From the NCBI GenBank assembly GCA_017963165.1, contig JAGCTZ010000029.1, forward strand, positions 1 to 7,118: DNA of 7,118 nucleotides, given 5' to 3'. A model generated the notes under the pieces. That model was not told the DNA's origin and did not search any database. It worked only from the letters and a program-made list of their open reading frames with translations. This DNA comes from Treponema sp. (GTDB lineage: Bacteria; Spirochaetota; Spirochaetia; Treponematales; Treponemataceae). Made by a program: the position numbers and the translations under genes. Of this stretch, positions 885 to 7,118 are shown one piece after another (position 1 is the first letter of the stretch; every line of letters begins with the position of its first letter).

Positions 885-1844
885 ATGGAAAAAAATCGTG
901 CACAACGAAACAGAACAATCACTCTTACGGAAGAAGAAAGAATTCAACTTCGTAAGAGTGTTGTTGTTTTAAATACCTCGGGATCCCTGAGCCTGTCGAA
1001 GGGCACACCACTTGATTGCACTATAAATGCCGATCTCCTGCAAGCCCTCCCATTATTACCGGACGCCTTTGCAGACCTTATCATAATAGACCCGCCATAC
1101 AATCTTACAAAAGATTTCAACGGAAATAAATTTAATGCACGCACCGAACAGGCTTACGATGAATACCTTGCAACCTGGTTTCCATTGGTTTGCAAAAAGC
1201 TCAAACCAAATGGCTCGCTTTATTTATGCGGCGACTGGAAATGTACATCGGCCTTGCAGCGTGCAATGGAAAAAGAACTTACAGTTTTAAACAGAATAAC
1301 CTGGCAGCGCGAAAAGGGAAGGGGTGCAAAATCAAACTGGAAAAACTCTATGGAAGATATCTGGTTTGGTGTAAAAAATCCTGACGATTATTATTTTGAT
1401 GTAGAAGCAGTAAAGCAGAAGCGTCGTGTAATTGCTCCTTACAAAGTAGACGGAAAACCAAAGGATTGGGAAGAAAGCGATGACGGAAACTATCGCCTGA
1501 CTTATCCTTCGAACTTCTGGGATGATATAAGCGTGCCGTTCTGGTCTATGCCCGAAAATACAGATCATCCGACACAAAAGCCAGAAAAACTTTATGCAAA
1601 ATTGATACTTGCTTCAAGCCAACCTGGAGACATTGTTTTTGATCCTTTCTTAGGAAGCGGAACAGCAAGTGTAGTTGCTAAAAAACTTGGACGCCATTAT
1701 TGCGGAATTGAAATGAACGAAGAATACTGTCTGCTTGCACAAAAACGTTTGCAGCTTGCCGAAACAGATAAATCAATTCAGGGTTACAGCGACGGAGTTT
1801 TCTGGGAACGCAATACAGCTCAGCAACAGAAGAAAAAGGATTAA
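885..1844 (+). CDS. beta-class site-specific DNA methyltransferase, apparently solitary
   Basis: The 319-residue protein transfers a methyl group from S-adenosylmethionine to a base in DNA. Catalytic motif IV, DPPY (residues 69-72), comes before the SAM-binding motif I, FDPFLGSGT (252-260), which is the circular order of beta-class enzymes. DPPYN favours N6-adenine as product, but N4-cytosine cannot be excluded. Between them lie a block ending NSMEDIWFG and the HPTQKPEKL motif that leads into motif I. The target sequence cannot be read from this; my recollection is that the central block resembles RsrI/EcoRI-type GAATTC methylases, which is only a hint. No restriction endonuclease gene is adjacent, so it looks like an orphan regulatory or housekeeping methylase. 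ATG 885 has no evident Shine-Dalgarno sequence. Residues 34-40 (SLSLSKG) come from a short repeat inserted between the N-terminal helix and the CTINADLL strand that precedes DPPY. Confidence 0.9.
   Translation: MEKNRAQRNRTITLTEEERIQLRKSVVVLNTSGSLSLSKGTPLDCTINADLLQALPLLPDAFADLIIIDPPYNLTKDFNGNKFNARTEQAYDEYLATWFPLVCKKLKPNGSLYLCGDWKCTSALQRAMEKELTVLNRITWQREKGRGAKSNWKNSMEDIWFGVKNPDDYYFDVEAVKQKRRVIAPYKVDGKPKDWEESDDGNYRLTYPSNFWDDISVPFWSMPENTDHPTQKPEKLYAKLILASSQPGDIVFDPFLGSGTASVVAKKLGRHYCGIEMNEEYCLLAQKRLQLAETDKSIQGYSDGVFWERNTAQQQKKKD
920..960 (+). repeat. perfect 10-bp inverted repeat in the 5' coding part of the methyltransferase gene
   Basis: CACTCTTACG (920-929) is exactly complementary to CGTAAGAGTG (951-960) across a 21-nt spacer that contains GAATTC (940-945). 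It covers codons 12-26 of the methyltransferase. The arms are directly visible; any role as an mRNA hairpin or protein-binding site is inference. Confidence 0.55.
985..1003 (+). repeat. short palindromic repeat, copy 1, inserted in the methyltransferase gene
   Basis: The core CCCTGAGCCTGTCGAAGGG matches copy 2 at 2080-2097 except for one internal C/T change and one extra 5' C; similarity extends to flanking GG-T on the left and C on the right. It can fold on itself: CCCT pairs with AGGG, followed by tandem G-A/A-G mismatches and a G-C pair. Read in the methyltransferase frame it gives LSLSKG with no stop. The peptide sits in a region expected to be a loop and looks like an insertion. Confidence 0.75.
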
Positions 1845-1845
1845 A

Positions 1846-2448
1846 ATGCCAGAGATTTATCTTATGATGAATAAACCAGCCGGTTATGTCTGTTCGGCCG
1901 CCTCTGATTCGCATAAAACTGTTTATGAACTTTTACCACCAGAATTGCAGGACCTTGTAAAAAACGCAAAACGTGGTCACCGCCTGCATACAATAGGTCG
2001 TCTTGATGCTGAGACAACAGGACTTCTGCTCCTTACAACAGACGGAATGTTTTCGCATAGAATTGCAGCGCCTGTGGTTCCTGAGCTTGTCGAAGGGCCC
2101 AGTAAAAATCACACTATCTCTAAAATATATCTGGTAACACTAAAATTCGAAGTCTCTCCAGCCCAGCAGACCCAATACATAACCCGTGCGGCTCAAGGGC
2201 TTACACTTCCTCCAGAAAAAAAAGCACCTGAACAGCAGGCTGCTCCTGCCCAGCTAAAATTTATTTCGCAAAATCAGGCACGGATTACAGTAACAGAAGG
2301 AAAGTTCCATGAAGTACGCCGCATATTTCTCGCACTTGAAAATGAAGTAACAGAGCTTAAACGTATTGCTATAGGTTCGCTTTTTCTTCCCGATTCCTTA
2401 AAACCAGGTGAATATAAAAGTTTTTCTCCAGAACAAATACTTTTTTGA
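1846..2448 (+). CDS. RsuA/RluE-family rRNA pseudouridine synthase without S4 domain
   Basis: The 200-residue protein should isomerise a specific uridine in ribosomal RNA to pseudouridine. It opens with the MMNKPAGYVCS motif and carries GRLDAETTGLLLLTTDG, with catalytic Asp54, followed by SKIYLVTL and the family's C-terminal EGKFHEVRRIF. The open frame extends upstream to 1735, but ATG 1846 is preferred: it starts right at the conserved domain, lies 1 nt after the methyltransferase stop and follows AAGGA (1836-1840) at 5-nt spacing. No N-terminal S4 RNA-binding domain is present, unlike RsuA or RluB, so the architecture matches RluE. Which rRNA position it modifies cannot be told. Residues 77-85 (VVPELVEGP) interrupt the usual link between HRI..P and the SK.YLV strand; PELVEG (79-84) is encoded by the short repeat. 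The catalytic core is otherwise complete, so the gene should be functional. Confidence 0.88.
   Translation: MPEIYLMMNKPAGYVCSAASDSHKTVYELLPPELQDLVKNAKRGHRLHTIGRLDAETTGLLLLTTDGMFSHRIAAPVVPELVEGPSKNHTISKIYLVTLKFEVSPAQQTQYITRAAQGLTLPPEKKAPEQQAAPAQLKFISQNQARITVTEGKFHEVRRIFLALENEVTELKRIAIGSLFLPDSLKPGEYKSFSPEQILF
2080..2097 (+). repeat. short palindromic repeat, copy 2, inserted in the pseudouridine synthase gene
   Basis: CCTGAGCTTGTCGAAGGG is read in frame as PELVEG, a different reading frame from copy 1. The probable full unit is about 24-25 bp, from GG at 2076 to CCC at 2100. The host gene stays open through it. I recall this core recurring in many bacterial genomes, but no search was possible here. 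Confidence 0.75.
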
Positions 2449-3081: not shown

Positions 3082-3147
3082 GGGCGTTGCGGGGCGGCGC
3101 TTGAGCCCCGCTGGAAGGGGTAGCAGAAGACCGCAACGCGGGCTGGA
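3082..3147 (+). repeat. GC-rich foldable element in the lipoprotein 3' region
   Basis: This GC-rich island lies in otherwise AT-rich intergenic DNA just after the lipoprotein stop. GCGTTGCGG (3084-3092) pairs perfectly with CCGCAACGC (3131-3139). Inside, either GCGGGGC/GCCCCGC (3089-3095 with 3105-3111) or GCCCC/GGGGT (3105-3109 with 3117-3121) can form. The first shares bases 3089-3092 with the outer stem, so those two exclude each other. GCTGGA occurs twice (3110-3115, 3142-3147). It could be a dispersed intergenic repeat, a structured 3' UTR or a small RNA ending at the adjacent terminator. Confidence 0.55.
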
Positions 3148-3149
3148 GC

Positions 3150-3176
3150 GAGGGGAAGGCTTTCCCCTCTTTTTTT
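3150..3176 (+). terminator. intrinsic terminator after the lipoprotein gene
   Basis: The 8-bp perfect stem GAGGGGAA (3150-3157) / TTCCCCTC (3162-3169) has a GGCT loop and is followed directly by seven T residues (3170-3176). It closes the lipoprotein unit and separates it from cheR. Confidence 0.93.
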
Positions 3177-3178
3177 AT

Positions 3179-3206
3179 TTGTTTTTTCTTATAATGGGTG
3201 TATAAT
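3179..3206 (+). promoter_or_regulatory. predicted cheR promoter giving a leaderless transcript
   Basis: TATAAT at 3201-3206 has an imperfect -35, TTGTTT (3179-3184), at 16 bp. Transcription should begin 7-9 nt downstream, at or beside the A of the cheR ATG (3215). No Shine-Dalgarno sequence precedes the ATG. A second TATAAT at 3190-3195 has no good -35 and would leave a leader of only about 12 nt. Confidence 0.6.
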
Positions 3207-6910: not shown

Positions 6911-6987
6911 GACACCACAAAAGTTGATGAATGAAATCTTAAGGGGTTTCGTATTATAAAAAACTAATGATAAAATCATGAAAAAAT

Positions 6988-7112
6988 GCGGAGCGGAGGT
7001 TCTGGTTTTGCGGAGCGTTGAACGCGGGAAGTGCAGGGCTGCCGCAGGCAGGTCTGCACTTCGGAATAATTTCCTATCCGCGTTCTCGGCGGAGCAAAAT
7101 CAGGTTCTCCGC
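6988..7112. repeat. GC-rich multi-stem inverted-repeat element
   Basis: Nested complementary arms run through the last 130 bases: GCGGAG 6988-6993 with CTCCGC 7107-7112; CTGGTTTTGC 7002-7011 with GCAAAATCAG 7094-7103 (one G-T); GAACGCGG 7020-7027 with CCGCGTTC 7078-7085; GAAGTGCAG 7028-7036 with CTGCACTTC 7054-7062; CTGCC 7039-7043 with GGCAG 7047-7051; and GGAA 7063-7066 with TTCC 7071-7074. The last hairpin branches from the main axis beside the fourth stem. GCGGAG recurs at 6988, 6993, 7010 and 7089. The element may continue past the window. It could be a dispersed repeat, a structured RNA or a DNA cruciform; strand is unknown. Together with 6875-6987, which is AT-rich and holds the synthase promoter, it fills the gene-free right edge. 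Confidence 0.6.
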
Positions 7113-7118
7113 GGGAGC

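Follow-up and report, generated by a model that had tools for sequence, protein, structure and literature searches.

A REP-like palindromic hairpin dispersed among Treponema genomes and read in frame within genes

Two copies of one imperfect palindrome of ~27 bp lie in neighbouring genes of a stretch of Treponema DNA, where they are read in different frames, and the same element is dispersed and unevenly amplified among gut Treponema. We consider it probable that the element is a non-autonomous mobile hairpin of the REP type, which survives in genes as a tolerated in-frame peptide. This reading draws on the dispersal of the element, its presence and absence as a block, the covariation of its arms, its opposite-orientation pairs, its in-frame residence, and the bias in the frames that it uses.

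Two copies in neighbouring genes and their relatives in other genomes

The window (the whole stretch of 7,118 nucleotides that was analysed) contains two exact + strand matches to the 18-nt core CCTGAGCYTGTCGAAGGG, at 986-1003 and 2080-2097. No third copy was found in the window even with up to 3 mismatches, and 200 dinucleotide shuffles gave 0 matches. The features are as follows.

885..1844, + strand: host gene 1, DNA methyltransferase, with PF01555 at residues 64-287 (Pfam match, homologues)
979..1005, + strand: element copy 1, head CGGGAT, arms CCC/GGG (core match and conservation profile from -9 to +17)
988-999, + strand: inner core of copy 1, TGAGCCTGTCGA
1846..2448, + strand: host gene 2, RsuA-type pseudouridine synthase, with PF00849 at residues 5-161 (Pfam match, homologues, structure model)
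2073..2099, + strand: element copy 2, head TGTGGT, arms TCC/GGG (core match and conservation profile)
2082-2093, + strand: inner core of copy 2, TGAGCTTGTCGA

Copy 1 makes up residues 32-40 of the methyltransferase, upstream of the PF01555 domain, and is translated in frame as SGSLSLSKGT; copy 2 makes up residues 77-84 of the synthase and is translated in frame as VVPELVEGP. The sequence-only reading had proposed that one core sits in both genes in different frames and breaks neither. Both statements hold, as the matches are exact, the peptides differ (SLSLSKG and VPELVEG), and the two ORFs stay open and match their Pfam families. It was also correct, on inspection, that two of the three frames are stop-free in this orientation, where the core has a TGA in one frame, and that all three are stop-free in the opposite orientation. 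An Rfam scan of the window gave no match, and in thermodynamic folding its two copies did no better than shuffles. Elsewhere in the window, two intergenic stretches (3084-3180, which ends in a terminator-like T-run, and 6983-7118) are GC-rich and contain inverted repeats, the rest of the window being AT-richer; they look like another dispersed repeat.

The core is far more frequent in some Treponema genomes than chance would allow. The CC-type pattern CCTGAGCYTGTCGAAGG has 173 copies in G001, 41 in G002, 155 in G003, 206 in G004, 69 in G005, 75 in G007, 53 in G027 and 59 in G032, with 1-10 copies in 12 and 0 in 18 of the 38 genomes searched; its reversed-pattern control gave 0 in all 38. A centre-only pattern, TGAGCNTGTCGA, finds 156 copies in T. 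bryantii XBD1002 (G008; 153-156 across the searches), 10 of them of CC type, against 0-3 for the reversed control. Across 196 genomes of the genus Treponema, taken from a larger group and mostly draft MAGs of unstated completeness, the core TGAGCYTGTCGAA has at least 40 copies (40-234) in 25 and 0 copies in 51. A chance-level frequency of the core therefore fails, as does the other ground named for refutation, the same residues in orthologues of distant genera. The proposal that a very short repeat is dispersed and tolerated in frame as a peptide is upheld both by these counts and by its presence or absence at orthologous sites.

Homologues of the two host genes show such differences. They were assigned with loose regular-expression classes to the best 120 of 1631 synthases (119 parsed) and the best 120 of 8000 methyltransferases. 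The synthase loop holds an element-like peptide in 72 of the 119, is short (8-9 residues) in 28, and is longer and motif-free in 19; the methyltransferases carry the motif in 38 of the 120 and lack it in 82. At one and the same loop, homologues read PEPVEG, PSTSSGT, VVEPVETT, VVSTGST or LDKLNHR, a variety that corresponds to differing frames, orientations and arm types and that the DNA bears out in several cases. The insert is kept in P0001-P0005, the closest synthase homologues among the matches listed (87-95% identity). Among 52 related loci, all from Treponema or Spirochaetes, the closest named relative of the window is L002 (83.5% identity across 4.7 kb), in which the synthase loop is empty (AAAGISKIY against AAPVVPELVEGPSKNHTISKIY) and the methyltransferase hairpin is present but shortened. 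This empty loop contradicts a reading of the insert as conserved residues. The element is an in-frame insert that homologues lack, with gene function judged from open frames and Pfam matches.

In the AlphaFold2 model of the synthase (mean pLDDT 89.4), residues 78-88 (VPELVEGPSKN) form the only run below 50. The methyltransferase model has a mean pLDDT of 75.1, with 72 residues below 50, and places the copy (residues 32-40, block mean 75) between strands at 26-29 and 45-48, so that this copy is predicted to be a linker and not disordered. Separately, the loop of L001 and of the synthases P0002-P0005 and P0022 has grown into repeats like SDSASAVPEPAPAVPEPVEG, which suggests expansion from a decayed element copy.

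Anatomy and turnover of the hairpin

We profiled 252 exact-core copies from stretches of four genomes (G001, G003, G004 and G008) that were partly picked for hit density. Counted from TGAGC, the conserved positions extend from -9 to about +17, and the unit consists, in order, of Y-G-B-GGT, a first arm of three bases, TGAGCYTGTCGA, A, a second arm of three bases and CC. The 5' head is YGBGGT across the 193 copies of G001, G003 and G004, and C-GGT in G008. Around the constant centre of the element, GAGCYTGTCGA, the arms of 3-4 bp covary. At the three arm positions, 247, 248 and 212 of the 252 copies form Watson-Crick pairs, where shuffles average 155.5, 139.2 and 114.6. At the third position, 35 of the 40 non-Watson-Crick combinations are G.T pairs. 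Perfect arm triplets, of 10 types, are present in 209 of the 252 copies, compared with a mean of 100 and a maximum of 116 in shuffles. Since TGAGCYTGTCGA stays constant while the arms change together, it is the hairpin that is conserved. The copies are mutually related, so that arm covariation is evidence of pairing but does not tell how many independent events there were. The palindromic unit first described thus stands as a palindrome, but an imperfect one, with 3-4 bp arms round a constant centre and a length greater than the 18-nt core. Its centre may hold a tandem G.A mismatch. Among ten typed hairpins, those with long, perfect arms (GGT, CAT) give stable folds, and the CCC and TAC types fold weakly.

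Variants and combinations of the hairpin also occur. Some hairpins form a longer class that has a second inner stem (GGTTGAG-stem-TATCGAAAC). A regular expression for this class matched 16 times in 400 kb of G008 and nowhere in the G001, G003 and G004 stretches; the class is also found in locus L022 and, by eye, in L046 and L009. All 4 CC-type copies in the G008 stretches are nested within GGT-type copies. Neighbouring copies no more than 110 nt apart form 43 pairs, 36 of which are in opposite orientation, with spacings of 28-64 nt and one of 96. Strand counts set against GC skew (56/33, 30/29, 35/15 and 57/44) show no consistent bias.

Comparison of G003 with G004 over 229.6 kb of common stretches (93.4% identity) revealed turnover of about a third of the copies. 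G004 shares 27 of the 42 G003 copies unchanged, has a mismatch in 1 and lacks 14; conversely, G003 shares 25 of the 44 G004 copies unchanged, has a mismatch in 3 and lacks 16. These presence/absence differences are blocks of about 18-66 nt, and no clear target-site duplication was seen at inserted copies. For absent copies, the net indel was taken over 270 surrounding alignment columns. Its length is divisible by 3 in 19 of 21 copies flagged as coding vs 3 of 9 flagged as non-coding (one-sided p=0.003), or in 15 of 17 vs 3 of 9 when coding events are counted once (p=0.008). The coding exceptions (+28 after a T-run and -40 near the end of a gene) and the mis-flagged synthase copy L004:3235 were kept as computed. 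Gains include +33 (L294), +30 (L319), +42 (L273) and +35 right after a TAA (L292), the ancestral state of each site being inferred from the two genomes alone.

Several sites indicate exchange between hairpins. The term CGTC type is used here for hairpins that fit the tag description in the available part of PMC3733652 and two regular expressions. At L281:11421 and L272:8045, on different contigs, the apex of a CGTC-type hairpin in one genome is replaced by the element in the other, and the two chimeras are nearly identical. At L331, L316 and L100:8847, where one genome has a CGTC-type hairpin pair, the other has one or two element copies; at both L293:4270 and L273:2244 a simple copy stands opposite a composite (+21 nt) of one and the same kind; and the copy missing in one genome adjoins a shared copy in opposite orientation at L340:5060, L293:13534 and L004:3235. 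The CTTGA-loop form of the CGTC type numbers 30 in G003, 49 in G004, 24 in G001 and 0 in G008, and the GTCATTGCGAG form 24, 35, 0 and 13, respectively. CGTC-type REP hairpins coexist with the element as a separate family, exchange sites with it, and form chimeras.

Copies inside genes

With ORFs from a greedy caller, copies lie within ORFs in 38 of 56 cases in G003, 55 of 88 in G004 and 28 of 49 in G001, that is, in 121 of the 193 sampled copies (63%) of these three CC-type genomes. In T. bryantii XBD1002 the copies are mostly extragenic, with 37 of 59 intergenic and 16 in ORFs. The four genomes together have 137 of 252 copies in ORFs vs an ORF coverage of 91-94% (G003, G008 and G001 stretches). 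Genic copies are thus rarer than expected by chance, as would be the case if many insertions were lethal.

Frame use is strongly biased. The 121 genic copies of the three CC-type genomes give 122 readings (one copy lies in two ORFs): VPEPVEG 61, PSTGSGT 28, ALRQAQG 18, SLSLSKG 12, FDRLRD 3 and the TGA frame 0; tested against a model in which five frames are used equally, this gives p=6e-17. In G003, 28 of the 29 carrier ORFs were Pfam-scanned and 19 matched; the unscanned ORF has its copy across its stop codon. The carriers include dihydrofolate reductase (copy at residue 64 of 167), QueA (residue 267), a class II tRNA synthetase with a GAD domain, which we take to be AspRS (residue 379), LacZ (residues 237 and 622) and an FtsH-like ATPase (residue 62). 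In itself, the encoded peptide is probably functionless. At L283:13299-13376 in G004, an element copy in an ORF is tandemly duplicated by 33 nt (11 residues); it is single in G003.

Mobilisation, alternatives and known systems

A RAYT/TnpA_REP Y1 transposase had been named at first as the partner that might mobilise the repeat, and this proposal was not supported. PF01797 (Y1, RAYT-type) is present in 61 of the 196 genomes, in 58 above cut-off, and shows no association with copy number: it occurs in 6 of the 25 genomes with at least 40 copies (2 of them by partial matches) vs 55 of the 171 others (Fisher p=0.49), and was not found in the remaining 19 high-copy genomes. Only 1 of the 8 genomes with at least 100 copies has it (G161, a fragment at a contig end), none was found in the isolate T. 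bryantii XBD1002, and the Y1-rich G023 (4 Y1 genes) and G029 (7) have 0 and 2 copies. As most genomes are MAGs whose completeness is not given, single absences weigh little, and the lack of association weighs more. Other candidates were rejected as well. Reverse transcriptase PF00078 occurs in 9 of 25 high-copy genomes vs 46 of 171 others (p=0.35); PDDEXK_2 (PF12784) does not discriminate, being present in 11 of 12 selected high-copy genomes and in 8 of 12 selected for few or no copies; and the 5 short ORFs with copies at both flanks, judged by eye on their first 70 residues, are not transposase-like. PDDEXK_2 (Rpn-like) genes are numerous in G014 (15 matches) and G041 (19), unrelated to the element.

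The closest alternative is that the element is a classical REP whose RAYT/TnpA_REP either escaped detection in these genomes or disappeared from them once a burst was over. The 5' head, the imperfect palindrome and the opposite-orientation pairs resemble RAYT-moved REPs/REPINs as these are described in the available parts of the sources, and PF01797 genes do exist in this group of mostly draft genomes; however, the distribution of PF01797 and the flanked ORFs make this alternative rather unlikely. It is very improbable that the element is a non-mobile DNA or RNA motif under selection (a binding site, uptake signal, mRNA hairpin or terminator): its constant centre, the intergenic majority in T. 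bryantii, and a core common to Sphingobium, Arthrobacter and Microbacterium replicons would suit a functional motif, but blocks come and go at 93% identity, 51 of 196 genomes are copy-free, and one site is translated in differing frames and orientations. Ordinary conserved residues or a chance likeness between two genes, compatible with the variable length of the methyltransferase linker and with its 82 motif-free homologues, can be dismissed given identical DNA in two frames, the genome-wide counts and the empty L002 loop.

As a non-autonomous mobile hairpin, the element would move as a folded single strand, in lagging-strand, displaced or cruciform DNA. One possibility is a trans-acting enzyme distinct from any resident Y1 transposase; another is that hairpins are themselves the sites of template switching and conversion. 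Existing hairpins may be preferred acceptors, which would explain the opposite-orientation pairs, the nesting and the exchange with CGTC-type REPs. Within genes, survivors would be mainly insertions of 3n length in tolerable frames and surface loops. Against this reading weigh the absence of a mobiliser among the enzyme families examined, the shortage of copies in ORFs, the extragenic majority in T. bryantii XBD1002, the unremarkable folding of the window copies, the lack of a clear target-site duplication, the inference of ancestral states from two genomes, and the ordered methyltransferase copy. A bolder version, which we hold only tentatively and would not bet on, is that transposase-free mobile hairpins form a class spreading by exchange or template switching, in which the YGBGGT and CGTC families convert, nest and alternate at sites and TGAGCYTGTCGA is the recognised part. 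If this were true, mobile hairpins, entering genes freely, would keep supplying housekeeping proteins with disordered loops selected for their frame.

The core extends beyond Treponema. A Microbacterium plasmid has a 25-nt exact match, and one Microbacterium plasmid holds 3 cores; Sphingobium replicons match at up to 14 places each, among the matches listed. Sphingobium AP027312.1 has 27 cores, 20 of which form ten opposite-orientation pairs, with head CCGTTCG and, among the copies listed, mainly CCC/GGG or GGC/GCC arms. The Arthrobacter plasmid NZ_CP012477.1 has 9 cores, mainly with GGT or GAT arms, and a T. saccharophilum plasmid has 0. Viral contigs contain at least 120 stretches of CCC type and 11 of GGT type. 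The TGAGCYTGTCGA centre with other heads in Spirochaetota, Alphaproteobacteria and Actinomycetota may reflect common descent or convergence. In the PMC literature, 17-nt cores had no match, 12-nt cores had none about repeats by title among the matches listed, and peptide strings had only an unrelated match; no description of such a repeat in Treponema was found there among the matches listed.

These genomes form a lineage with hundreds of copies, many differing between sister genomes, in most high-copy members of which Y1 was not found. Gain, loss and hairpin swapping could be observed in a named strain, T. bryantii XBD1002. Bacteria beyond Rickettsia would also load important proteins with mobile-element peptides, and the frame bias of these peptides is measurable.

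Among known systems, REPs in the broad sense are palindromic units of 20-40 bp in high copy number, which the element fits (~27 bp, 40-234 copies in 25 of 196 genomes); they are predominantly extragenic, which it is not in G001, G003 and G004, only G008 conforming. GTAG-tagged REPs/REPINs are RAYT-moved and carry a 5' tag, according to the available parts of PMC3116915 and PMC8266576. The element shares the plan of a 5' tag, an imperfect palindrome with an unpaired centre, high copy number and pairs, but has no GTAG, no Y1 found in 19 of 25 high-copy genomes, and 63% of its copies in ORFs (three genomes). CGTC-tagged REPs, including Rickettsia conorii RPE-4 and RPE-6, are small palindromes with many opposite-orientation dimers, lie in frame in ORFs, and are described without a dedicated transposase, with Spirochaetes among the phyla named (PMC3733652, available part); how they spread without RAYT is an open question in the same text. 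They are like the element in palindrome, opposite-orientation pairing and in-ORF residence, but as described there their tag is CGTC, TGTC or CCTC and their first two stem pairs are A-T, and the element differs in both, with YGBGGT as its head and GAGCYTGTCGA as its centre. PARCEL repeats are palindromic coding DNA dispersed among genes as 25-residue tandem domains (PMC2996958, available part). Such arrayed domains differ from the element's single inserts of about 9 residues. Selfish palindromes in Rickettsia coding genes (RPE-1; Ogata et al. 2000) are said to lie in frame and to be tolerated as a surface peptide. RPE-1 is likewise in frame in working genes and is described as longer than the element. 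The likeness to Rickettsia proposed by the sequence-only reading therefore stands for the way of working and not for family membership, the CGTC tag of RPE-4 and RPE-6 being absent. The element behaves like the protein-embedded elements of Rickettsia and like intragenic REPs, and it is of a known kind, but carries neither the GTAG nor the CGTC tag.
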